Under the pieces are notes generated by a model. That model made no database searches, was not told the origin of the DNA, and saw only the letters and a program-made list of their open reading frames with translations. 35,529 bases of DNA from Candidatus Woesearchaeota archaeon (GTDB lineage: Archaea > Nanobdellota > Nanobdellia > Woesearchaeales > GW2011-AR4), in the NCBI GenBank assembly GCA_016185805.1, contig JACPMW010000005.1, positions 1 through 35,529 on the forward strand, in the 5' to 3' direction. This document shows positions 9,607-21,673 of this stretch, piece after piece; position 1 is the stretch's first letter, and each line of letters begins with the position of its first letter. Made by a program: the position numbers and the translations under genes.

Positions 9607-9618
9607 AACCTTTAAATA
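9607..9618 (+). promoter_or_regulatory. Strong BRE/TATA promoter P1 ahead of the Phe/Tyr-rich leader ORF
   Basis: AACCTTTAAATA is the same BRE/TATA form seen ahead of the TrmB-like and eL34 genes. It is centred about 32 nt before ATG 9646, so the leader ORF would be the first thing transcribed and nearly leaderless. Confidence 0.65.
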
Positions 9619-9645: not shown

Positions 9646-9744
9646 ATGATGAAAAGGATAGAAAATTTGATGGCCCAGATTGGGTTCGCTTTCTACAGGC
9701 TGTTTTCAAGCTTCAGGTATTTCTTTTTTTACTTTAAATTTTGA
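9646..9744 (+). CDS. Phe/Tyr-rich 32-residue leader peptide ahead of the aromatic operon (not in ORF track)
   Basis: I translated this by hand: MMKRIENLMAQIG, then F-A-F-Y-R-L-F-S-S-F-R-Y, F-F-F-Y-F-K-F and a TGA stop. Nine Phe and three Tyr fall in the last 19 codons, and Trp is absent. The downstream operon makes Phe and Tyr and encodes PheS/PheT, so the codon content matches the products. The cluster RYFFFYF resembles the bacterial PheM leader of pheST (FRFFFYF). The ORF has its own BRE/TATA, its stop overlaps the 5' arm of a hairpin, and its Phe codons create a T-rich tract. This looks like an attenuator leader; a small aromatic membrane peptide is the alternative. A possible second start is 9649. 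Confidence 0.6.
   Translation: MMKRIENLMAQIGFAFYRLFSSFRYFFFYFKF
9721..9741 (+). terminator. T-rich tract within the leader ORF, possible archaeal terminator
   Basis: TTCTTTTTTTACTTTAAATT consists of the Phe/Tyr/Lys codons 26-31 of the leader ORF. Archaeal RNA polymerase terminates at oligo-T tracts without a hairpin, so the codons sensed and the termination signal may be the same bases. This is inference from base content. Confidence 0.35.
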
Positions 9745-9773
9745 TTAGCTAAATTTTCTAAAAATGGCTAATC
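9743..9773 (+). promoter_or_regulatory. Hairpin overlapping the leader ORF stop codon
   Basis: GATTAGCTA at 9743-9751 can pair with TGGCTAATC at 9765-9773 (nine pairs including one G-U), with a 13-nt loop rich in T then A. The 5' arm begins inside the TGA stop codon (9742-9744), so a ribosome at the stop would mask it while one stalled far upstream would not. A competing pairing joins GCTTCA (9710-9715, inside the leader ORF) with TGAAGC (9780-9785). Confidence 0.5.
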
Positions 9774-9789
9774 TTGTGTTGAAGCATGA

Positions 9790-9839
9790 TAAATTTATAA
9801 AAAATGGCAAAAACTGACAATATGGAAACAAAAAGGTGG
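9790..9839 (+). promoter_or_regulatory. Possible second promoter P2 and Shine-Dalgarno sequence of the DAHP synthase gene
   Basis: AAATTTATAAAAAATGG (9791-9807) is also a fair TATA box and would start transcription near 9822, giving a short leader. AGGTGGG (about 9834-9840) is a good Shine-Dalgarno sequence 5 nt before ATG 9845. If P2 is used strongly, the leader ORF would control only readthrough from P1. Confidence 0.45.
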
Positions 9840-9844
9840 GAAAT

Positions 9845-10858
9845 ATGATTGTTGTGATGAGAAAAAATGCAAATGAAAGGCAGATTGCAAAAGTAATCGG
9901 GAAGATAAAATCCAGTGGCCTGAAATCGCATATTTCAAAGGGGGAGGTTTTGACAATCATCGGAATAATAGGCGATGAGAGAAAAGTCCCTGAATCCCAG
10001 ATTAGGGCAATGGAAGGCGTTGAAAAGATTATGCCTGTTCTCTCTCCGTACAAGCTTGTGAGCAGGGATTTTCATCCGCACAATAGGATAGTGGCTGTCA
10101 ATGGTGTTAAGATAGGAGGCAATGATATTGTAGTTATGGCCGGCCCATGCTCTGTTGAGAGCAAAGAGCAGATAATAGAAACTGCGAAACAAGTCAAAAA
10201 AGCTGGAGCAAAGATACTAAGAGGAGGGGCTTTCAAGCCAAGAACATCCCCATATTCTTTTCAAGGTTTGGGTGAGGAAGGCTTAAAATTGCTGAAAAAG
10301 GCAAAGGAAGAAACAGGAATGCCTATCATCACAGAGGTGATGGACACAAGGAATGTTCCTCTGGTTTGCAGATACGCTGATATTCTCCAGATAGGCGCAA
10401 GGAACATGCAGAATTATGATTTGCTCAAAGAAGTCGGAAAATGCTCACACCCTGTTTTGCTGAAAAGGGGATTGTCAGCCACCATAAATGAGTGGCTTAT
10501 GAGCGCCGAATACGTCATGTCAGAGGGCAACCATGATGTCATTCTGTGCGAAAGGGGAATAAGGACATTTGAGAATTACACAAGGAATACCCTTGACTTG
10601 AATGCAGTTCCAGCGGTAAAGGAATTGACCCATTTGCCGGTTATTGTTGACCCAAGCCACGGCACAGGCAGATACACTTTAGTAAATCCTATGAGCAGGG
10701 CAGCTGTGGCAGCAGGCGCAGACGGCTTGCTGATAGAAGTCCATCCTAATCCTGAAAAATCTGTCAGTGACGCTGACCAGACCATAAGCACAAAGAAGTT
10801 TGCAAAGCTTATGGATGAGCTGAGATTGGTGGTAAAGGCAATCGGAAGAAATATATGA
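9845..10858 (+). CDS. aroF: 3-deoxy-7-phosphoheptulonate (DAHP) synthase with N-terminal regulatory domain
   Basis: The enzyme joins phosphoenolpyruvate and erythrose-4-phosphate in the first step of the shikimate pathway. It is 337 residues and resembles the Thermotoga-type DAHP synthase along its length: an N-terminal ferredoxin-like domain (about 1-70, with [20 protein letters not shown]) is followed by the TIM barrel with AGPCSVES near 98, [19 protein letters not shown] near 122, [11 protein letters not shown] and [13 protein letters not shown]. In the Thermotoga enzyme that N-terminal domain binds Tyr/Phe for feedback inhibition, so allosteric control is likely here too. The track start at 9836 is GTG; ATG 9845 has the better ribosome binding site and gives the family's MIVV start. 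The gene overlaps the next by four bases. Confidence 0.95.
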
Positions 10859-11469
10859 AATTTGTAATAGTAAGGCACGGCCAAACTTCGTGGAATGAGA
10901 AAAAAAGGTTCCAGGGAAAAACTGACACAGGATTATCAAAAAATGGGCTTAAGCAGGCTGAAATGCTTGCAAAAAAATTGTCAAAGGAAAAAATTGATGC
11001 CATTTACACAAGCATGCTAAAAAGGGCGATAGTGACAGCGGAAAAAATCCAGAAATTCCACAAAGAAGCCAGGATCATAAAGGCAAAAGAGCTGAATGAG
11101 CTGTCATGGGGGATTTGGGAAGGCATCAAGTTAAGTGAAGTCAAGAAAAGGTATCCTGAGCTTTATGAAAAAAGGGAAAAAAACAGGTTTAATTTTAGGA
11201 TCCAAAAAGGCGAGAGCCTGAAAATGGTGAAAAAAAGGATAAAAAAAATTTTAAGCAGCATAAGGAAAAAAGGCAATGGGACTGTTTTGATTGTCGGCCA
11301 CCTCAATGTCAACAGGGCTATAATTGGAACATTGATGGGCTGGAAAGATAAAAAAACATCATCCATAAGCCTGCATAATGCATCGGTAGTGGCCATAGAG
11401 GTAAATAAAAGCAGGGCTAAAATTTTGCGCGCTTCAAGCAGCATTGAAAATGGAAATTTGCCGTGTTGA
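10855..11469 (+). CDS. Histidine phosphatase (phosphoglycerate mutase-like) in the aro operon
   Basis: The 204-residue protein has the RHG signature ([11 protein letters not shown], residues 4-14), the following [16 protein letters not shown] segment, the catalytic glutamate region ELSWGIWEG and a second histidine in [14 protein letters not shown]. These define the histidine phosphatase superfamily branch that includes phosphoglycerate mutase, alpha-ribazole phosphatase and metal-independent phosphoserine phosphatase. Its start overlaps the DAHP synthase stop (ATGA) and its end overlaps aroB by about 20 bases, so it is firmly inside the operon. No shikimate step needs it, so its substrate is an open question. 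Candidates are a phosphoglycerate or phosphoserine, or a sugar phosphate of the pathway. Confidence 0.85.
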
Positions 11470-12538
11470 TTTAAAGGAGGAAACTGGCAATTCATACGAC
11501 ATTATCATAGGCGCTGGCTTAATAGGCAATCTAGCCATAGAATTAAAGCAAAAGCCTGTTGCAAATGCCTATGCGATAATCACCGACTCCAATGTTAAAA
11601 GGCTTTATGGAGAAACGCTGCTGAAAAATTTTCAGGCTAAAAATCTGCATGCCCATCTCATCTCTTTTCCAGCTGGGGAAAAAAGCAAGAGCAGGGATAC
11701 AAAAGAAAAGGTGGAAAATGAGATGCTCAATCTTGGCTTCGGAAGGGACTCGTGCATCATTGCCCTTGGAGGTGGCGTTGTTGGCGACTTGGCAGGCTTT
11801 GTTGCAGCTACATATATGAGGGGCATTCCCTGCATTCAAGTTCCTACTACATTGCTTGCGATGGTTGACAGCTCCATAGGGGGCAAAGTTGCTGTCGATA
11901 CAATGCATGCAAAAAATGCGATAGGGGCTTTCCATCAGCCAAAAAAAGTCATTATAGATATGAATTTTCTGAAAACCCTGCCTAAAAAGGAGCTGGCAAA
12001 CGGCCTGGCAGAGATGATAAAGCATGCGCTAATCAGCGACAGGGATTTTTTCCATTTTTTAGAGAAGAATATTGATAAAATATTAAACTGTGATTTGGAG
12101 ACGCTTGAACAAGCGGTAAAAAGAAGCTGCGAAATAAAAATCCATATTGTTGAGGAGGATGAAAAAGAAAAGGGATTGAGAAAGCTCCTGAATTACGGCC
12201 ACACCATAGGGCATGCAATTGAATCGGCATTAAAATACAAAATAAGCCACGGTCAGGCAATATCCATCGGGATGAGCTATGCCGCAAAGCTCTCTGCAAA
12301 AAATGGATTTTTGGATGAAGGCTCTGTGATAAGGCAGAATAATCTGCTTGAATACATTGGATTGCCCCATAAGCTAAGCCACCGCAAGCTTAAGCCAAGG
12401 GAAATTTTAGAGCATATCCAATATGATAAAAAAATAATAAATAAAAAATTGAATTTTGTGCTGCTGAATTCCATAGGGGATGCATTTGTTTCTGATGATG
12501 TTTCAATGGAAGACTTAAAGGGAATACTTGGGGAATAA
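11450..12538 (+). CDS. aroB: 3-dehydroquinate synthase
   Basis: The 362-residue protein converts DAHP to 3-dehydroquinate using NAD and a divalent metal. The NAD-binding GGGVVGDLAGFVAATYMRG lies near residue 103, followed by the substrate loop PTTLLAMVDSSIGGKVAVD and the metal-binding GHTIGHAIES, whose histidines with GLAEMIKHALI complete the site. The length is standard for AroB. This is the classical enzyme, not the archaeal AroB' (DHQ synthase II) used by methanogens with a different first step; that agrees with the DAHP synthase upstream. The ATG at 11450 is preferred over the TTG at 11444. It overlaps the phosphatase gene by 20 bases, and aroD starts one base after its stop. Confidence 0.95.
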   Translation: MEICRVDLKEETGNSYDIIIGAGLIGNLAIELKQKPVANAYAIITDSNVKRLYGETLLKNFQAKNLHAHLISFPAGEKSKSRDTKEKVENEMLNLGFGRDSCIIALGGGVVGDLAGFVAATYMRGIPCIQVPTTLLAMVDSSIGGKVAVDTMHAKNAIGAFHQPKKVIIDMNFLKTLPKKELANGLAEMIKHALISDRDFFHFLEKNIDKILNCDLETLEQAVKRSCEIKIHIVEEDEKEKGLRKLLNYGHTIGHAIESALKYKISHGQAISIGMSYAAKLSAKNGFLDEGSVIRQNNLLEYIGLPHKLSHRKLKPREILEHIQYDKKIINKKLNFVLLNSIGDAFVSDDVSMEDLKGILGE

Positions 12539-12539
12539 A

Positions 12540-14027
12540 ATGCTTGCAGCAGTCGTATTGGAAAAAACCGCAGAAAAAGCTATGAAAGCTGCTGAGAGAT
12601 GCAAAAAAGCTGACTTGATTGAGTTAAGGCTTGACAGCATAAGGGATTTAGGCCCTGCAACGCTGAAGGAATTGATAGAAAAATGCGGTAAGCCCGTTAT
12701 CGCAACCAACAGGAAAAGTAATGAGGGTGGATTTTTCAGGGGCAATGAGAAGAAAAGGGTTGGCCTATTAAAAACGGCGATTGATTTGGGGGCTGATTAT
12801 GCGGATATTGAGTATTCAAGCCAAGCTTCCTCAAAATTCCTGATTAAAAATAAAAAAAACACGAAAATCATTGTTTCTTACCATAATTTTAAGGAGACTC
12901 CGGATAGCATAAAAAAGACATACGGCAACATTAAAAGCTTAAATCCTGACCTGATTAAAATCGTGACACGGGCAAATTCTGCAGCTGACAATTTCAGGAT
13001 TTTTGATTTAATAAATAAAGCAAATGATGAAAAAAGAAAAATTGTTGCTTTCTGCATGGGACACTATGGGCAGTTTGGCAGGATTTTGGGCATTATACTC
13101 GGCTCCAAAATAGCTTATGCCTCAATTGAAGAGGGGAATGAGTCTGCAAGCGGGCAATTGACGCTAAATGAATTGATAAGTCACTACAAGCTAAGGAAGT
13201 TAAATAAAAACACGAAAATAGCCGGCTTGATAGGAAATCCAGTTGCACATTCCTGGTCCCATATAATGCACAATGAGGGCTTTGACAAGTTAAGGATAAA
13301 TGCAGTCTATCTGAAGTTTCAGGTTGACAAATTAAGGGAATTTATTGATTATTTTAAAAATTTGAACTCTCTTGGCTTTAGCGTCACAATACCTTATAAG
13401 ATTGAGGTTATGAAATATTTGGACAAGATTGATGAGAAAGCAGAAGAGATTGGCGCTGTCAACACAATAGTCATGCGAAACAAAAAATTGATTGGGTATA
13501 ATACAGACTGCCAAGGCGCAGTAATGGCATTAAAGGAAAAAGTAAGTCTAAAAGGAAAAAGGGCTGTTCTTTTAGGCGCAGGCGGCTCAACAAGGGCTAT
13601 TGCTTATGGATTAATGGAGGAAAACATGAATAATATAACCATATTGAACAGAACAATAAAAAAGGCAAAAGACATTGCGAATGATTTTGGCTGTGGTTAT
13701 GGCTCTTTGAGTGATTTGAAAAATGTTGATTATGATATGTTGATCAACACAACTTCAGTCGGCATGCATCCAAACGCTGATGAGTCAATAATACCTTCAA
13801 ACCTGATAAAAAAAAACTCTGTTGTCTTTGATATTGTTTTTAACCCTTCCAAGACACGGCTCCTCAAAGATGCTGAAAAGAAAAGCTGCACAATAATTCC
13901 AGGATTCGAGATGCTTGTTCAAGGTGCGATGCTCCAGTTCAGGCTCTGGACAAGCAAAAATGCGCCTGAAAAGGCAATGAAAAGAAAAGTTTTGGACTAT
14001 TTGAAAAATGCTGGCAATAAAAACTAG
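12540..14027 (+). CDS. aroDE: Bifunctional 3-dehydroquinate dehydratase/shikimate dehydrogenase
   Basis: The 495-residue protein is a fusion of type I dehydroquinase (about residues 1-215) and shikimate dehydrogenase (about 220-495). In the first part ELRLD, the catalytic histidine in IIVSYHNF and the Schiff-base lysine in PDLIKIVTRA are visible. In the second part GNPVAHSWSHIMHN binds shikimate, TIPYK contributes the catalytic lysine, NTDCQGA the aspartate, and VLLGAGGSTRAIAYGL is the NADP-binding glycine loop. It performs steps three and four of the pathway. The same order of fusion occurs in plants and some bacteria. ATG 12540 is preferred over the track's TTG at 12528; it follows the aroB stop by one base. 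Confidence 0.94.
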   Translation: MLAAVVLEKTAEKAMKAAERCKKADLIELRLDSIRDLGPATLKELIEKCGKPVIATNRKSNEGGFFRGNEKKRVGLLKTAIDLGADYADIEYSSQASSKFLIKNKKNTKIIVSYHNFKETPDSIKKTYGNIKSLNPDLIKIVTRANSAADNFRIFDLINKANDEKRKIVAFCMGHYGQFGRILGIILGSKIAYASIEEGNESASGQLTLNELISHYKLRKLNKNTKIAGLIGNPVAHSWSHIMHNEGFDKLRINAVYLKFQVDKLREFIDYFKNLNSLGFSVTIPYKIEVMKYLDKIDEKAEEIGAVNTIVMRNKKLIGYNTDCQGAVMALKEKVSLKGKRAVLLGAGGSTRAIAYGLMEENMNNITILNRTIKKAKDIANDFGCGYGSLSDLKNVDYDMLINTTSVGMHPNADESIIPSNLIKKNSVVFDIVFNPSKTRLLKDAEKKSCTIIPGFEMLVQGAMLQFRLWTSKNAPEKAMKRKVLDYLKNAGNKN

Positions 14028-15261
14028 AAGGCATGTAAATGCCACGATAGAAGCGCCCTCTTCTAAAAGTTACACGCAAAGAGCTTTAATAGTTGCATCC
14101 CTTGCAAATGGGAAGTCCGTAATAAAAAATCCGTTGTTTAGCGAGGACACGTTTTATATGATTTCTGCGCTGAAGCAGTTTGGCGTCAGCATAGTTAAAA
14201 AAGGCAGAAATTTGATTGTGCACGGGACTAATGGAAACTTAAAATCCCCTGACAAGCCTGTTTTTGTCGGAAATGCCGGCACTGCAATGCGGTTTTTGTC
14301 GGCATTTGCTTCCCTTGCGAAGGAAAAAATAACAATAACTGGAGATAAAAGGATGCAGCAAAGGCCGCTTCAAGATTTGATAGATGCTTTGAAGCAATTA
14401 GGCGTGAAAGTTGAAAGCAATGGCGGCTGCCCCCCTGTGGATATTTATGGAAATTTTGCAGGCGGGAACGCCCGATTGAAGAGTGGCATAAGCAGCCAGT
14501 ATTTGTCATCTATATTGATGTGCGCCCCCTACGCCAAAAAAGATGTTGCAATAAGCATAGCTGGCAATTTGACCTCAAAGCCGTACATAGACATTACATT
14601 GGATGTTATGAAAAACTTCGGAGTTAACGTAAAAAACCATGATTATAAAAAATTCACAATAAGAAATACCGAAAAATATAAGCCAAGAGTTTATAAGGTT
14701 GAGGGAGATGCCTCGAGCGCGAGCTATTTCTTTGCAGCAGCTGCCATAACAAAAGGGAAGGTTATGGTAAAGAATATAAACCCGCGCAGCAAACAAGGCG
14801 ATATAAAGTTTTTGGACACACTTAAAAGAATGGGGTGTGGTGTAAGGAAAGGAAATGATTTTGCTGAGGTTAAGGGTGAAAGCCTCAAGGGCATTGACGT
14901 TGAAATGGGTAATATGCCTGACATTGTGCCCACGCTGGCTGTCACAAGCATATTCGCTGATGGCATGACAATAATAAGGAATGCTTCAAATTTAAGGTAT
15001 AAGGAGACTGACAGGCTGAAGGCATTGGCATTTGAGCTTAGAAAGATAGGCGCAAATGTTGAGGAAAGACAGGATGGCCTGGCAATAAAAAGAAAAAGGC
15101 TTCAAAAGGCTGTAGTTGAGACTTACAACGACCACAGGATGGCGATGAGCTTTGCAATAGCGGGGTTGGCAATCAGCGGAATCAGGATAAAAAACCCGAA
15201 TTGCGTTGCAAAATCCTTTCCTGATTTTTGGGAAAAATTCAGCTTGCTTTATAAGAAATGA
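14008..15261 (+). CDS. aroA: 3-phosphoshikimate 1-carboxyvinyltransferase (EPSP synthase)
   Basis: The 417-residue enzyme transfers the enolpyruvyl group of PEP to shikimate-3-phosphate. Family landmarks are in order: PSSKSYTQRALI (residues 18-29), GNAGTAMRFLSAF near 88, KRMQQRPLQDLIDALKQLG near 114, SSQYLSSILMCAPYA near 160, MPDIVPTLAV near 303, RYKETDRLKAL near 330 and NDHRMAMSFAIAGL near 372. The length is close to the usual 420-450. It overlaps aroDE by 20 bases and shikimate kinase by four (ATGA), which indicates tight translational coupling. Confidence 0.95.
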   Translation: MLAIKTRRHVNATIEAPSSKSYTQRALIVASLANGKSVIKNPLFSEDTFYMISALKQFGVSIVKKGRNLIVHGTNGNLKSPDKPVFVGNAGTAMRFLSAFASLAKEKITITGDKRMQQRPLQDLIDALKQLGVKVESNGGCPPVDIYGNFAGGNARLKSGISSQYLSSILMCAPYAKKDVAISIAGNLTSKPYIDITLDVMKNFGVNVKNHDYKKFTIRNTEKYKPRVYKVEGDASSASYFFAAAAITKGKVMVKNINPRSKQGDIKFLDTLKRMGCGVRKGNDFAEVKGESLKGIDVEMGNMPDIVPTLAVTSIFADGMTIIRNASNLRYKETDRLKALAFELRKIGANVEERQDGLAIKRKRLQKAVVETYNDHRMAMSFAIAGLAISGIRIKNPNCVAKSFPDFWEKFSLLYKK

Positions 15262-15770
15262 ATATTGCATTGATAGGGTTCAGGGGCGCGGGAAAAACCA
15301 CAATCGCTAGGCTGCTGGCTGCAAGGCTTGATAAGAAGCTAGTCTCTACAGATGAAGAGATTGCAAAAAAAACAAAAATGCCGATTGCAAAGTTTGTCAA
15401 AAGCTACGGCTGGGACAAGTTCAGGGAAGTGGAATCAGATGTGGTGGAATCCATAAGCGATTTTGATGAATGCATCTTTGACACAGGCGGCGGCATTGTG
15501 ATGAGGAATGAGAATATTATAAATCTAAAGAAGAGTTCCCTGATTGTGCTGCTGACCGCAGATGTGAACACTATAAAAAGCAGGATAAAAAACAGCAAAA
15601 GGCCTCCGTTGACAAACAGAGGGAATTGCATCGATGAGGTAAAGGAAGTTCTTCAGGAAAGGGAAGCAAGATACAAGAGGGCTGCCGATTACACTATTGA
15701 TACCTCAAGGCTGACTGCCGAGGAGGCTTGCGACTTGATAATGCATTATGCGCAAATGGAGCTGCAGTAA
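15258..15770 (+). CDS. aroK: Shikimate kinase, bacterial AroK type
   Basis: The 170-residue protein phosphorylates shikimate with ATP. It is a P-loop kinase: Walker A GFRGAGKTT (residues 7-15), the shikimate-binding aspartate in STDEEI near 32, arginine in KFREVESDV near 54, the GGG loop FDTGGGIVM near 75, and lid residues in KRPPLTNRG near 112. Most archaea use an unrelated GHMP-family shikimate kinase, so a bacterial-type enzyme here suggests the operon or this gene was gained from bacteria. It starts within the aroA stop (ATGA) and is followed one base later by aroC. The length matches the family. Confidence 0.93.
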   Translation: MNIALIGFRGAGKTTIARLLAARLDKKLVSTDEEIAKKTKMPIAKFVKSYGWDKFREVESDVVESISDFDECIFDTGGGIVMRNENIINLKKSSLIVLLTADVNTIKSRIKNSKRPPLTNRGNCIDEVKEVLQEREARYKRAADYTIDTSRLTAEEACDLIMHYAQMELQ

Positions 15771-15771
15771 T

Positions 15772-16848
15772 ATGAACACCTTCGGCACTTTGTTCAGGAT
15801 AACTACATGGGGGGAGAGCCACGGCAAGGCCATAGGGGTTGTGGTGGATGGGTGCCCTGCCGGGCTTGAGATTGATGAAAAAGATATACAAAAAGAGCTT
15901 GACAAAAGGGCGCCTGGGCAAAGCGAGGTCATGAGCCCGAGGAAAGAAACTGATAGGGTGGAGATTTTGAGCGGAATTTTTGAGGGTATGACAACTGGAA
16001 CTCCAATCTCGATGATCATCTACAACAAGGATGCAGACTCCTCAAAGTATGAAAAGATAAGATACTTGCTGAGACCCGGGCACGCTGACTTTTCTTATCA
16101 AGCAAAATACGGCCACAGGGACTATAGGGGAGGCGGGAGGAGCTCTGCCAGAGAGACGGCTGCAAGGGTTGCCGCAGGGGCTATTGCAAAAAAATTGCTG
16201 GAGTTTCATGAAATAAAAATCATAGCTTATGTCAAGGAATTGGCTGGAATAAAATCGAGCAGGATGGATTATAGCCAGATATATGGAAATAATGTGAGGT
16301 GCCCTGACAAGAATGCCGCGAAAAAAATGGAAAAGGCAATCCTAAAGGCAAAAAATGAAGGTGATTCAGTCGGTGGGATTTGCGAGATTATCGCAATGAA
16401 TGTGCCTGCAGGGCTAGGCAAGCCAATTTACAGCAAGCTTGAATCTGATTTGGGGTCTGCAATCCTTGGCATCAATGCAGTCAAGGGAATTGAATTTGGC
16501 ATGGGATTTGAACTGGCAAGAATGAGGGGCAGCCAGTCAAATGACGAATTTATTGTAAAAAATAATAAGATTGCAACAAAAACAAACCACCATGGCGGCA
16601 TTTTAGGTGGTATATCAACTGGAATGCCAATCATTATGAGGGCTGTCGTAAAGCCTGCATCAAGCATATTGAAAAAGCAAAAAACAGTCAATTACAAGAC
16701 GATGAAGCGGGAGATAATTTCAGTTGAGGGGAGGCATGACCCTGCAACTATAGTCAGGTTCCCGCCGATTGCAGAGGCCATGGTTGCTATAGTGCTGGCT
16801 GACCACATGCTCATGGCCGGCAGGATAAATCCTGATAAGATGGGATGA
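15772..16848 (+). CDS. aroC: Chorismate synthase
   Basis: The 358-residue protein completes chorismate by eliminating phosphate from EPSP with reduced FMN. The signature blocks are present: the start [22 protein letters not shown] with the catalytic histidine, [22 protein letters not shown] near 122, [17 protein letters not shown] near 272, and [25 protein letters not shown] near 322 with the second histidine. The ORF-track start at 15748 is upstream; ATG 15772 comes one base after the aroK stop and gives the usual N terminus. It overlaps tyrA by four bases. Confidence 0.96.
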
Positions 16849-17690
16849 ATTCTATGAAAAGAGTTTCAGTTGGAATTATTGGCGGCACTGGAAAAATGGG
16901 GAGATTCTTCAAAAAATTTTTCGAAAAGAACAAATGCAAAGTCTTGGTTTCATCAAGAAGAACAAGGCTAAAACCAACAGAGTGCGCAAAAAAAAGCGAT
17001 GTCGTTCTTGTCTCTGTACCGATAGGCGCCACTTTAAAAGTCATCAGGGAAATAAGCCCTTGTATAAATAAAAAATCCTTGCTGATTGATACAACCTCCA
17101 TTAAAAAAGAGCCTGTCAATGCAATGCTGAAATATTCCAAATGCGAGGCTATCGGCATGCACCCTGTTTTCGGGCCTAATGTCGGTTCAGTAAAAAACCA
17201 GGCAATTGTATTGTGCCCGGCCAGAGGAAAAAAGTGGCTCAGGTGGATTGCCAATATTTTTGAAAAGAATGGGGCAAAAATCAGGATTGTGACTGCAAAA
17301 AAACACGATGAGATGATGTCCATAATTCAGGGGCTTAATCACTTCAGCACTTTGGCTGTCGCTCATGCGATGAAGCGGTCCGGAATAGCCATAAATGAAA
17401 GCCTTGAATTCGCAAGCCCTGTTTACAGGCTAAGAATGATGATGGTTGGGAGAATCCTAAACCAGAATCCTGAGCTGTATGCCGACATTGAAATAATGAA
17501 TTCCAAGAACAGGGAAATGTTGGACCTGCTGGAAAAATCCTCACAGCAGCTTAAAAAAATAATAGAATCAAAAAATAAAAGGGAGTTTGTGAAATACTTC
17601 AATGAATGCTCGCAGTTTTTTGGGGGTTTCAGGAAAGATGCTGAAAGGACAAGTGACTATCTCATAGAAAAGATGGTGGAGATGGAATGA
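16845..17690 (+). CDS. tyrA: Prephenate dehydrogenase
   Basis: The 281-residue protein oxidatively decarboxylates prephenate to 4-hydroxyphenylpyruvate, the tyrosine precursor. A Rossmann loop GIIGGTGKMGRFF lies at residues 9-21. The domain continues with VVLVSVPIGATLKVIREI near 62, LLIDTTSIKKEPVNAML and the substrate-site histidine in GMHPVFGPNVGS near 104. IQGLNHFSTLAVAHAM near 160 begins the helical dimerisation domain. No chorismate mutase domain or ACT domain is attached, consistent with the separate AroQ upstream. ATG 16845 overlaps the aroC stop, while ATG 16854 would drop three residues. It overlaps pheA by four bases. Confidence 0.9.
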   Translation: MNSMKRVSVGIIGGTGKMGRFFKKFFEKNKCKVLVSSRRTRLKPTECAKKSDVVLVSVPIGATLKVIREISPCINKKSLLIDTTSIKKEPVNAMLKYSKCEAIGMHPVFGPNVGSVKNQAIVLCPARGKKWLRWIANIFEKNGAKIRIVTAKKHDEMMSIIQGLNHFSTLAVAHAMKRSGIAINESLEFASPVYRLRMMMVGRILNQNPELYADIEIMNSKNREMLDLLEKSSQQLKKIIESKNKREFVKYFNECSQFFGGFRKDAERTSDYLIEKMVEME

Positions 17691-18496
17691 GAATAGCAAC
17701 TTTGGGCCCGGAAGGCACTTTCAGCCATGAAGCATCCTTAAAATACGGAAAAAGCTCGCCAATCTCATTTGCAAACACCATCAGGGATGTGTTCGGGCTT
17801 GTTGCTGACGGCAAAGCGGACATCGGAATTGTTCCTGTTGAGAATTCAATTGCAGGCACAATAGGTCAAACCCTTGATTTGCTGTTGGATTATAAGCTTA
17901 TGATTAAGGCAGAGGAGATTATGCCGATAAGCCATAATCTGGTGGGGTTTGGCAGGGCTAGCGAGATAAAAGTTCTTTACCTCCACCCGCAAACTTACGA
18001 GCAATGTGAGATTTTCATCAAAAAGAACTTTCCTAAGGCAGAGATATTGCAAACCTCCAGCAATGGGAGGTCTGCAGAGATTGTCGCAAATGCGAAAGAC
18101 AAATCAAAGGCATCCATAATCCCAAAGATTGCAGCCAGCATTTACAAGCTGAAGATATTGAAGAGAGATGTCCAAGACAGCAGGTTCAATGTCACAAGAT
18201 TCTTTGCCATTGGCAGGAATGATGGGAAAAAAACAGGCTATGACAGGACCAGCATTGCAATTTATCCCCAGGCTGACAGGCCAGGCCTGCTGCATGAAAT
18301 GCTTGGGGAGTTTGCAAAAAGAAGGATAAATTTGACAAAGATTGAGTCCAGGCCTTCAAAGGGCAAGCTTGGCGATTACGTTTTTTTTATTGATTTCCAG
18401 GGGCATAGGGCAGAAAAGAACTCTGCAGATGCTCTTAAAAATCTTGAAAAGAATTTTTTTGTCAAAATATTGGGGAGCTATCCGAGGAAATACTGA
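17687..18496 (+). CDS. pheA: Prephenate dehydratase with ACT domain
   Basis: The 269-residue protein turns prephenate into phenylpyruvate. Type 2 periplasmic-binding-like dehydratase lobes span about 1-180: GPEGTFSHEAS at residues 8-18, GIVPVENSIAGTIGQTLDLL near 54, and the catalytic threonine in FNVTRFFAIG near 169. A C-terminal ACT domain (about 188-265) carries RPGLLHEMLGEFAKRRINLTKIESRP, whose GLL and ESRP motifs bind Phe for feedback inhibition. It is monofunctional. Its ATG overlaps the tyrA stop, and pheS starts 2 bases after its own stop, which joins synthesis and tRNA charging in one transcript. Confidence 0.95.
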   Translation: MRIATLGPEGTFSHEASLKYGKSSPISFANTIRDVFGLVADGKADIGIVPVENSIAGTIGQTLDLLLDYKLMIKAEEIMPISHNLVGFGRASEIKVLYLHPQTYEQCEIFIKKNFPKAEILQTSSNGRSAEIVANAKDKSKASIIPKIAASIYKLKILKRDVQDSRFNVTRFFAIGRNDGKKTGYDRTSIAIYPQADRPGLLHEMLGEFAKRRINLTKIESRPSKGKLGDYVFFIDFQGHRAEKNSADALKNLEKNFFVKILGSYPRKY

Positions 18497-18498
18497 AT

Positions 18499-20016
18499 AT
18501 GGAGATTAAAAAGCTGGCAGAAAGCCTTAACCCTGTTGAAAGAAAGGTTTTGAAAGTTCTTGATAATTTTGATTACTTTCATGACATCATGAAAGCCACA
18601 AATCTCAAGGATGTCGAGGTTTCAAGAGCATTGCAATGGCTGCAGAACAAGAATGTTGTCGAGCTGAAAGAGCAGCAGAAAGAAATGGTGTTATTGGATG
18701 AGAATGGCCTGAAATATCTGAAATCTGGTCTGCCTGAAAGAAAATTCCTTGATGCCATTGAGAGAAAAACATCAGTTTCCGAGATAGCAAAAAAGGCTGG
18801 ATTGAGCAATGAGGAAATTGCAATTTCCCTTGGCGCTTTGAAATCAAAAGCTGCAATTGAAATGGAAAAGGGCAAGGAGCTTCTGGTTTCAATAACTGGC
18901 AATGGAAAGCATTTGCTGAAGCATGGATTTCCTGAAGAGCAGTTCCTAAGGGAAATCTTTCCGAAGGAATTAAGCTCTTTGAATGAAGAGGAAAAGTCTG
19001 TCCTTGAAAATCTAAGAAAAAGAAAAAAAATCATCAGGGTTGAGCTGTCCAAAATAATAAATGTTGAGCTGACAGAAACAGGAAAGAAGCTGCTGAAGGA
19101 AAAAATTGAAGATGATTTGATTGAGAAATTAAGCCCTTCACTGGTAAAGGCAAGTGCGTGGAAGGGCAAGAAATTCAGGCGCTTTGATGTAAAAATCAAT
19201 GTGCCCTCAATTTTCGGAGGCAGAAAGCAGCACTACAGAAGATTTCTTGATGAGGTCAGGCAGAAATTTGTTGCGCTTGGCTTCAAGGAGATGACAGGCC
19301 CGATTGTCGAGACTGATTTTTGGGATATGGATTCCTTATTCATGCCGCAGTTCCACTCTGCAAGGGAAATTCATCAGGCTTATTATGTAAAGGAGCCGAA
19401 ATACGGAAAATTGGATGAAGCTCTTGTCAAGAGAGTGAAGGAAGCTCATGAAAATGGATATGAAACAGGCTCAAAAGGCTGGCGCTATGAGTTTGATGTG
19501 AAAAGAACGCATAGGCACATGCTAAGGACCCAGGGAACTGCATCTTCTGCTAGGATGCTTGCATCAAAAGAGCTGCAAATTCCGGGAAAGTATTTTGCGA
19601 TTTCAAGATGTTTTAGGTATGATATTATTGATGCAACCCACTTGTCGGATTTTTTCCAGACAGAGGGCATTGTTGTCGAGGAAAATCTGAATTTCAGCCA
19701 TTTGAAGGGTTTGCTTAAGATGTTTGCAGAGGAATTTGCAGAGACTGATCAGATAAAGATAACACCGGGCTATTTTCCATTCACAGAGCCAAGCGCAGAG
19801 CTGCATGCAAAGCATCCGGATTTGGGATGGATTGAGCTGGGAGGCTCGGGAATTTTTCGCCCGGAAGTTGTAAAACCCCTTCTTGGAAGGGAAATGCCTG
19901 TGCTTGCATGGGGCATCGGTATAGACAGGATTGCGATGTTCAAGCTCGGAATCAGGGACATTAGGCAGTTATTCAGCCATGACTTGGAATTTTTGAGAAG
20001 TGCAAAAATAGTTTAA
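18499..20016 (+). CDS. pheS: Phenylalanyl-tRNA synthetase alpha subunit, archaeal type
   Basis: The 505-residue protein is the catalytic class II subunit that charges tRNA-Phe. The first about 215 residues are tandem winged-helix modules, as in archaeal and eukaryotic cytosolic PheS. The catalytic core follows: motif 1 near 240-275 with FVALGFKEMTGPIVETDFWDMD, motif 2 FAISRCFRYDIIDATHLSDFFQTEG near 368, the Phe pocket FTEPSAELHAKHP near 427, and motif 3 PVLAWGIGIDRIAM near 473. Its place at the end of the Phe/Tyr synthesis operon is notable, because charged tRNA-Phe is exactly what an attenuator leader would read. Confidence 0.95.
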   Translation: MEIKKLAESLNPVERKVLKVLDNFDYFHDIMKATNLKDVEVSRALQWLQNKNVVELKEQQKEMVLLDENGLKYLKSGLPERKFLDAIERKTSVSEIAKKAGLSNEEIAISLGALKSKAAIEMEKGKELLVSITGNGKHLLKHGFPEEQFLREIFPKELSSLNEEEKSVLENLRKRKKIIRVELSKIINVELTETGKKLLKEKIEDDLIEKLSPSLVKASAWKGKKFRRFDVKINVPSIFGGRKQHYRRFLDEVRQKFVALGFKEMTGPIVETDFWDMDSLFMPQFHSAREIHQAYYVKEPKYGKLDEALVKRVKEAHENGYETGSKGWRYEFDVKRTHRHMLRTQGTASSARMLASKELQIPGKYFAISRCFRYDIIDATHLSDFFQTEGIVVEENLNFSHLKGLLKMFAEEFAETDQIKITPGYFPFTEPSAELHAKHPDLGWIELGGSGIFRPEVVKPLLGREMPVLAWGIGIDRIAMFKLGIRDIRQLFSHDLEFLRSAKIV

Positions 20017-20017
20017 A

Positions 20018-21673
20018 ATGCCGACTATAACTTTTTCACTGAAGGATTTGCAACATCTTGTAGGCAAAAAAATATCCGTTGAGGAGCTGCAGGAACTGGC
20101 CCACTACGGCAAGGGCGACTTTGAAGGCTATGACAAAGAAACAGATGAAGCCAAGATTGACTTCGGGGACACAAACCTTCCATATCTCTGGAGTGTTGAG
20201 GGTGTTGCACGCTTGATTAAGGGAATTCTTGGATTGCAGAAAGGCATTCCTGAAATAAAAGTCAGCAAAGGAGGTTACCAAGTTGTTGTTGACAAGTCTG
20301 TAATCAAATACAGGCCATATATTGCATGCTTCGCTGCAAAAGGCAAAAAGATGGATGATTATTTGATAAAGCAGATGGTGCAGCTGCAGGAGAAATTCTG
20401 CGAGAGCTATGGCAGGAGAAGGCAGAAAGTTTCAATTGGGCTGTATTCCTACAAAAGATTGAAATTTCCGGTGCATTACAAGGCTATTGAGCCATTGTCG
20501 ATAGAGTTCGTGCCTTTGGAATTCAAGGCAAAGATGAACTTAAAGGAGATTTTGGCAGAGCATCCAAAAGGAAGGGATTATGCATGGGTGCTTGAGGGAT
20601 TTGACAAATATCCTGTATTGATGGACGACAAGAATGAAGTGATGAGCTTCGTTCCAATAATCAATTCCAATTTTACAGGAAAGCTCGAGATTGGGGATGA
20701 AGACTTATTTTTTGAAGCTACTGGAATTGACGAGGAAGCTGTCAACCTAGCTGCAAGCATATTTGCTTATGCCCTGCATGACAGAGGCTTCCAGATTTAC
20801 TCTGTTGAGGCAAAATATCCTGACAAAAAAGTTATGATGCCAAATCTGAAGAATGAGTCTATACAGATAAAGAGCGAGCAGATAAAGCATTTGTTTGGAT
20901 TGGAATTAAAAGAAAATGAAATAAAGCAATTACTTGAGAAATCCCAATATGACTTTGCCAATTGGAAAGTGAAAATTCCTGTTTACAGGAATGACATCCT
21001 GCACCCTTATGATATAATAGAAGATATTGGCATAGCCTATGGCTTTGACAAAATAAAAGAATTGCCATTGACAACATTTACGCATGGCTCGACTTTCAAA
21101 TTGAATGAGTTCATTGACAAGGTAAGGGAAATCATTGTGGGGCTTGGCTATCAAGAGATTTTGAGTGCAATATTGGCCAACAAGGAACTGCTTTACAGGA
21201 AGATGAACATCAAAGATTTTGGCACTATTGAGATAGACGACTACATGTCCGAGACTTATTCTGTTGTAAGAAGCTGGATTTTGCCGAATTTGATGGAAGT
21301 TTTTTCAAAAAACAAGCATGTTGAATTTCCCCAGAAGATTTTCGAGCAGGGGCTTGTGAATTCAAGAAAAGGTGATGAAATTTTCGAAAGCCATAGGATA
21401 GCAATTGCTTCTTCCCATGAAAATGCAAACTACACAGAAATGAGGCAGATTTTGGATTATATAATGAAATGCTTTGGCTTGAGCTGTGATATAGAAGAAG
21501 CAGAGCATGATTCTTTCATTGAAGGCCGAGTTGGAAGGGCTATAGTGAAAGGCAAGAAGGTGGCTTATTTGGGAGAAATTTCGCCTGTTGTAATTACAAA
21601 TTGGGGCCTTGAAATGCCAGTTGTCGCTTTGGAGCTGAATTTGAGCGAATTGTGGGAAGTGATGGAAAGGTAA
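20018..21673 (+). CDS. pheT: Phenylalanyl-tRNA synthetase beta subunit, archaeal type
   Basis: The 551-residue protein is the non-catalytic beta subunit; the length is that of archaeal PheT rather than the roughly 800 of bacteria. An N-terminal region (about 1-100) is followed by the B3/B4 editing-type domain (about 110-260, YRPYIACFAAKG to ATGIDEEAVNLAASIFAYAL). The B5 domain with ENEIKQLLEKSQYDF and PVYRNDILHPYDIIEDIGIAYGF lies near 300-360, and the inactive synthetase-like core covers the rest. It starts one base after the pheS stop, so the subunits are made together. The final part AYLGEISPVVITNWGLEMPVVALEL is the conserved C terminus. Confidence 0.95.
   Translation: MPTITFSLKDLQHLVGKKISVEELQELAHYGKGDFEGYDKETDEAKIDFGDTNLPYLWSVEGVARLIKGILGLQKGIPEIKVSKGGYQVVVDKSVIKYRPYIACFAAKGKKMDDYLIKQMVQLQEKFCESYGRRRQKVSIGLYSYKRLKFPVHYKAIEPLSIEFVPLEFKAKMNLKEILAEHPKGRDYAWVLEGFDKYPVLMDDKNEVMSFVPIINSNFTGKLEIGDEDLFFEATGIDEEAVNLAASIFAYALHDRGFQIYSVEAKYPDKKVMMPNLKNESIQIKSEQIKHLFGLELKENEIKQLLEKSQYDFANWKVKIPVYRNDILHPYDIIEDIGIAYGFDKIKELPLTTFTHGSTFKLNEFIDKVREIIVGLGYQEILSAILANKELLYRKMNIKDFGTIEIDDYMSETYSVVRSWILPNLMEVFSKNKHVEFPQKIFEQGLVNSRKGDEIFESHRIAIASSHENANYTEMRQILDYIMKCFGLSCDIEEAEHDSFIEGRVGRAIVKGKKVAYLGEISPVVITNWGLEMPVVALELNLSELWEVMER

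Follow-up and report, generated by a model that had tools for sequence, protein, structure and literature searches.

Leader peptides in bacteria and archaea

Leader-peptide control by the supply of charged tRNA is textbook bacterial regulation, represented in E. coli by the attenuators pheL, pheM, trpL, leuL, ilvL and hisL. In leaders of the TnaC and erm type, a stalled ribosome shields or frees an adjoining RNA element. No characterised archaeal leader-peptide attenuator was found in the open-licence literature, subscription papers lying mostly outside the search. A review of archaeal coupling leaves attenuation and leader peptides unmentioned (PMC8116511), and a tool paper touches on archaea only in a passing general statement (PMC10219788).

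The stretch of DNA analysed here (35,529 nucleotides, hereafter the window) comes from a Candidatus Woesearchaeota archaeon whose genome spans 0.94 Mb and is 86% complete. Ahead of its Phe/Tyr operon lies a short leader ORF, and comparative sequence analysis makes it probable (about 0.75) that the leader peptide controls this operon in cis through the progress of its own ribosome, as a member of a class that serves aromatic and branched-chain operons. As in the E. coli attenuators, a short ORF rich in codons for the operon's product is placed between promoter and first gene, with its own-amino-acid codons clustered and their identity dependent on the pathway, and a hairpin is found near the leader end. 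Unlike those attenuators, the archaeal leaders have a TATA promoter and probably a nearly leaderless start, carry cognate codons up to the stop and a single hairpin at the stop codon, and show neither an alternative structure nor a U-run terminator. With TnaC and erm leaders they would share a ribosome positioned at the leader end beside the RNA element under control, but the signal would be hungry cognate codons rather than a ligand or drug, and the archaeal leaders have no Rho site and no masked Shine-Dalgarno.

The leader ORF and the operon downstream

The leader ORF (MMKRIENLMAQIGFAFYRLFSSFRYFFFYFKF; 9646-9744, forward strand, as are all features below) comprises 32 codons and ends in a Phe/Tyr codon cluster that occupies 12 of 19 codons up to the stop (9685-9741). 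Codons 14-32 contain 9 Phe and 3 Tyr, and Trp is absent; a second ATG at 9649 provides a possible alternative start. The TATA box of the leader promoter (TTTAAATA, 9611-9618) lies 35 bp 5' of the leader ATG. An earlier sequence-only reading had described both ORF and TATA box, correctly in detail. Another TATA-like stretch (AAATTTATAA, 9789-9798), located between the hairpin described below and the first structural gene and not conserved in close relatives, could be a bypass promoter.

The first structural gene encodes 3-deoxy-7-phosphoheptulonate (DAHP) synthase (DAHPS; 9845-10858; NF006421, 538 bits). Its ATG at 9845 is 100 bp 3' of the leader stop and is preceded by a likely Shine-Dalgarno, GGTGGG, at 9835-9840 (by inspection). 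A histidine-phosphatase-like gene, aroB, aroD-aroE, aroA, shikimate kinase, aroC, prephenate dehydrogenase and prephenate dehydratase follow at 10855-18496, and archaeal-type pheS and pheT at 18499-21673. The complete Phe/Tyr operon that the sequence-only reading had placed about 100 bp after the ORF is thus present from DAHP synthase through pheT, ending at 21673. The histidine-phosphatase-family gene (10855-11469) sits between DAHP synthase and aroB. In all five close relatives as well, pheS lies about 8.6-9.5 kb 3' of DAHPS.

The same leader occurs in 5/5 same-genus genomes (L003-L007), whose DAHP synthases are 82-85% identical. A conservation check proposed with the sequence-only reading has now been run: the ORF is kept in the five nearest genomes, and 11 of the window's 12 Phe/Tyr positions are invariant in amino acid, with codon drift there confined to TTT/TTC and TAT/TAC. 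The last leader residue varies between F, H and Y within the genus. The mean dN of 0.06, set beside a mean dS of 0.83, indicates strong purifying selection and identifies the peptide as what selection keeps.

A class of aromatic leaders across the order

DAHPS was matched in 98 of 353 genomes of the order, where the absence of a gene is uncertain because the genomes are mostly metagenome assemblies. An upstream scan revealed a short ORF with an F/Y-cluster ending at most loci where DAHPS starts the operon. A detector accepting ATG-initiated ORFs of 12-60 codons with at least 6 F/Y among the last 12 was positive in 36 of 63 DAHPS upstream regions; dinucleotide shuffles predict 0.24 such regions, and control windows at his and trp loci 0.49. 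In the leader's own frame 6.6 of the last 12 codons were F/Y, and the other two frames gave 2.2 and 2.7. After removal of near duplicates, 39 independent leaders with Phe/Tyr(/Trp) endings remain, each ahead of a DAHP-synthase operon and together spread over 21 of the order's families, counts of independent events that are approximate, since family sampling is uneven and operons may be exchanged between families. Two further leaders (L178, L179) were found later and are additional to this set, and L079, which lacks a hairpin, was excluded as doubtful.

Between families the N-termini are mostly unrelated and the common part is the F/Y(/W) ending, as in ELSSFYFFGYYF (L008), FFYRFFGYYFW (L041), DVFFFRYFFR (L065), SFFSFYYYFN (L081) and MNSNFGFYSGFYYFF (L050), each directly before the stop. 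In 36/39 leaders no more than one sense codon separates the last aromatic codon from the stop. The likeness of the window's ending to E. coli PheM, pointed out in the sequence-only reading, is best read as convergence, given that even archaeal families mostly differ in the N-terminal part of the leader.

The leader tracks the 5' end of the operon, not DAHPS: in four genomes with transketolase-like genes ahead of DAHPS (L143, L144, L145, L149), it precedes the first of these genes. No convincing leader was seen in the upstream regions of pheS genes outside the aro operon, and none at the nine DAHPS loci of the same class outside the order. At L144, L145, L149 and L148 (genomes G213, G214, G344 and G342, respectively), the leader or DAHP synthase is preceded by a conserved gene whose product, about 270 aa long, begins MIVK(E/D)EFLSKLRRYF.

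Bacterial DAHPS genes, mostly from gut Clostridia, also have F/Y-rich ORFs about 80-240 nt upstream (for example MKKQFYAFYFGYYFFRPYF; also L249, L210). Those at L215, L223, L230, L239 and L257 resemble the archaeal leaders in being short, F/Y-rich and placed about 80-160 nt ahead of a related DAHPS, but most end in RPY or KPY and their sequence is unlike that of the archaeal leaders; they possibly constitute a bacterial leader family. A joint bacterial origin of leader and DAHPS was considered and rejected: 12/72 bacterial relatives (52-62% identity) score, and the clear ones are mostly Clostridia.

Leader codons follow the pathway

Trp is present in 23/39 aromatic leaders. Set against trpE in the genome, 18 cases have both leader Trp and trpE, 5 leader Trp only, 4 trpE only and 12 neither (p=0.0013, from a post hoc test uncorrected for kinship or assembly gaps). 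Leaders of the window's clade are without Trp, yet trpE is found in G000, G004 and G005; in G004 it adjoins a second DAHPS.

Branched-chain operons are, in our judgement, the decisive control for such matching. An L/I/V leader stands at the operon start in 13/18 genomes with a full-score ilvB, and in at least 2 of the 5 leaderless ilvB genomes the locus is interrupted by a contig end. Examples are MESASKIGLLNVLLVLVVLLVLV (L332), MIKNSTITLSVVLVLVLVLL (L337) and MKNTTYNVNSVSVVVVVV (L310), and one comes from the window's own genus (MAHSNKSMLVLSVLVLVLFVVA; L314, G005). A class-wide search at leuA added 8 leaders, bringing the leu/ilv total to 21; 6 of the 8 belong to families that are not part of the order, among them L352, ending SLALLLLLL, and L355, and L358, ending TGLLLLLLLL, lies inside it. 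Tandem leucine-rich leader ORFs (MPNIINNKNLLLLLLL and MKNKQKQIIDFNSQISNSLLLLLLLQ) occupy -233 to -55 relative to leuA at L355 (G584).

Over the last 12 codons, aromatic leaders average 7.2 F/Y/W and 0.9 L/I/V, whereas the 13 leu/ilv leaders average 0.15 F/Y/W and 10.2 L/I/V, with no overlap between the sets. As the leu/ilv set was selected on L/I/V, the informative figures are its scarce F/Y/W and the scarce L/I/V of the aromatic set, which was unselected in that respect. At least 7 L/I/V arise by chance in 2.3% of shuffled leader regions.

No general His leader was found upstream of hisG. Candidate His leaders do occur before his genes, a good one at L087 (ending ASHHHH) and others at L091 and L099 (GCIHHK, GCIHHR), as do candidate Trp leaders before trpE at L118 and L130 (SSLWTWC, PYFWCFWE).

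A shared layout around the stop codon

A TATA-like hexamer lies 26-37 bp 5' of the leader ATG in 32/39 aromatic leaders (4.4 in shuffles) and in 17/21 leu/ilv leaders (3.0 in shuffles). The usual archaeal TATA spacing places the transcription start at or just 5' of the leader ATG. A 5' end so placed, at most about 10 nt from the ATG, makes a nearly leaderless transcript probable.

A second common element, absent from the sequence-only reading like the leaders of other operons, is a hairpin at the stop codon. In the window it is GATTAGC...GCTAATC (9743-9773), its 5' arm beginning inside the stop codon, where folding energy peaks in the class. For aromatic leaders the mean over 32 nt is -7.3 kcal/mol directly 3' of the stop and -1.3 to -3 at distances of at least 15 nt; ordinary gene stops at the same loci (n=393) average -2.3 kcal/mol (p=2.5e-13 against the leaders). 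Leu/ilv hairpins average -7.2 against -3.75 in shuffles. The arms differ in sequence between families and pair within each. L003-L007 retain the hairpin as well, and there an outer-stem A-U pair has become G-U; it is weak or missing in the first 32 nt at L008, L010, L011, L307 and L310.

The top enriched 6-mer downstream is CATTGT, found in 12/60 leaders against 0.7 expected; the degenerate form CATYST occurs in 20/60 against 4.0 expected, mostly 19-38 nt 3' of the stop. The motif directly follows the hairpin and is common to aromatic and leu/ilv leaders (for example L144, L015, L358). In the window the corresponding position (9774-9781) has diverged to TTGTGTTG; CATTGTC is intact in the relatives L003, L004, L006 and L007. 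CATTGT is also seen 3' of the candidate His leader L087 and the candidate Trp leader L118.

Possible mechanism and competing explanations

Codon clustering, pathway matching and position together make it very likely that the leader senses the supply of its cognate amino acid. Regulation as such, its sign and its output are what we infer from these features. A nearly leaderless transcript would be translated during its synthesis. With charged tRNA plentiful, the ribosome would complete the leader and depart, allowing the hairpin to form and RNA polymerase to pause or terminate near CATTGT, perhaps aided by FttA/aCPSF1, the archaeal terminator. With charged tRNA scarce, a ribosome waiting on the last cognate codons would cover the 5' arm of the hairpin with its leading edge, and transcription would continue into the operon. 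We favour the hairpin, together with CATTGT, as off-switch because the cognate codons reach the stop, and a ribosome there would touch the 5' arm with its leading edge; a stall at the first cognate codons would not cover the hairpin, so that the opposite sign is possible. A hairpin off-switch acting through termination is put forward tentatively, at somewhat less than even odds. FttA/aCPSF1 is a natural candidate for the terminator, found at full score in 19/25 relatives and as a partial family match in the window's own incomplete genome. It terminates transcription at U-rich RNA, which it binds 30 to 36 positions back from the RNA end (-30 to -36); that archaea police coupling in this way is so far hypothetical (PMC11616081).

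The output might instead be mRNA stability or translation: a ribosome stalled near the 5' end would protect the transcript from decay, and the hairpin would stabilise it or direct where it is cut. The ORF's place at the extreme 5' end of the nearly leaderless layout would suit this explanation, as would the lack of a recognisable terminator: neither a bacterial-type nor a known archaeal-type terminator was identified in the leaders, and their base composition as a class shows no U-run after the hairpin. Against it, the fixed hairpin position and CATTGT would go unexplained, and the first genes carry their own, unmasked Shine-Dalgarno, and we hold it to be unlikely. A translational attenuator of the ermC type was rejected: the mean unpaired probability of the first gene's Shine-Dalgarno is 0.42 free and 0.46-0.47 with a ribosome on the leader, and ribosome placement gives no consistent change in its unpairing.

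A classic bacterial-type attenuator, whose exclusive hairpins were missed since the partners diverge, is quite improbable. By inspection, AGATTGG (codons 11-13) can pair with the 3' arm in the window and in most of its close relatives, but across the class ORF/3'-arm pairing is no better than for codon-shuffled ORFs (mean z 0.11, n=39), and this pairing was rejected as a class feature. Either hairpin arm pairs with downstream sequence no better than chance, and mean z is near 0 for all alternative pairings, leaving no mutually exclusive antiterminator and terminator structures in the class. Rfam covariance models, T-box or other known families, gave 0 matches in nine loci. With no alternative pairing, bacterial terminator or Shine-Dalgarno masking, the design is therefore not the textbook bacterial one. 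Of the attenuation suggested by the sequence-only reading, the codon-sensing leader is now strongly supported, by 21 families and by the leu/ilv matching, while for attenuation in the bacterial sense neither exclusive structures nor a U-run terminator were found.

The U-rich run of Phe codons could itself be an FttA or intrinsic terminator that a stalled ribosome shields, considering that FttA binds U-rich RNA (PMC11616081) and that the F/Y tract near the stop is about 70% U. Yet the leu/ilv leaders have the same layout without a U-rich tract, and the maximum T-run (5.57) matches that predicted from codon use (5.47), which makes the tract unlikely as a terminator alone; third positions do carry a surplus of U, but not one peculiar to F/Y codons, and we rate this alternative as very improbable. 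A small membrane or trans-acting peptide unrelated to codon sensing, as hydrophobic C-termini and purifying selection in the genus might suggest, is hardly credible where leaders of different families are mostly unrelated apart from their pathway's own amino acids, and these differ between aro and leu/ilv.

Implications

The leaders at operon starts suggest that in Woesearchaeota-type archaea, as in bacteria, amino-acid shortage is sensed through the progress of the ribosome. Beyond this, we see an even chance that these archaea possess a general leader-peptide control of their own, covering aromatic, branched-chain and possibly His and Trp operons, built on nearly leaderless transcripts with a stop-codon hairpin and CATTGT, in which ribosome position would gate RNA polymerase or FttA without antiterminator switching. 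If true, this would be a second attenuation design, independent of the bacterial one, and the roughly 60 pathway-matched leaders would show transcription-translation coupling serving regulation in archaea. They would also offer a compact natural substrate for probing communication between the ribosome, Spt5 and FttA, a question that remains after the FttA structure study (PMC11616081).
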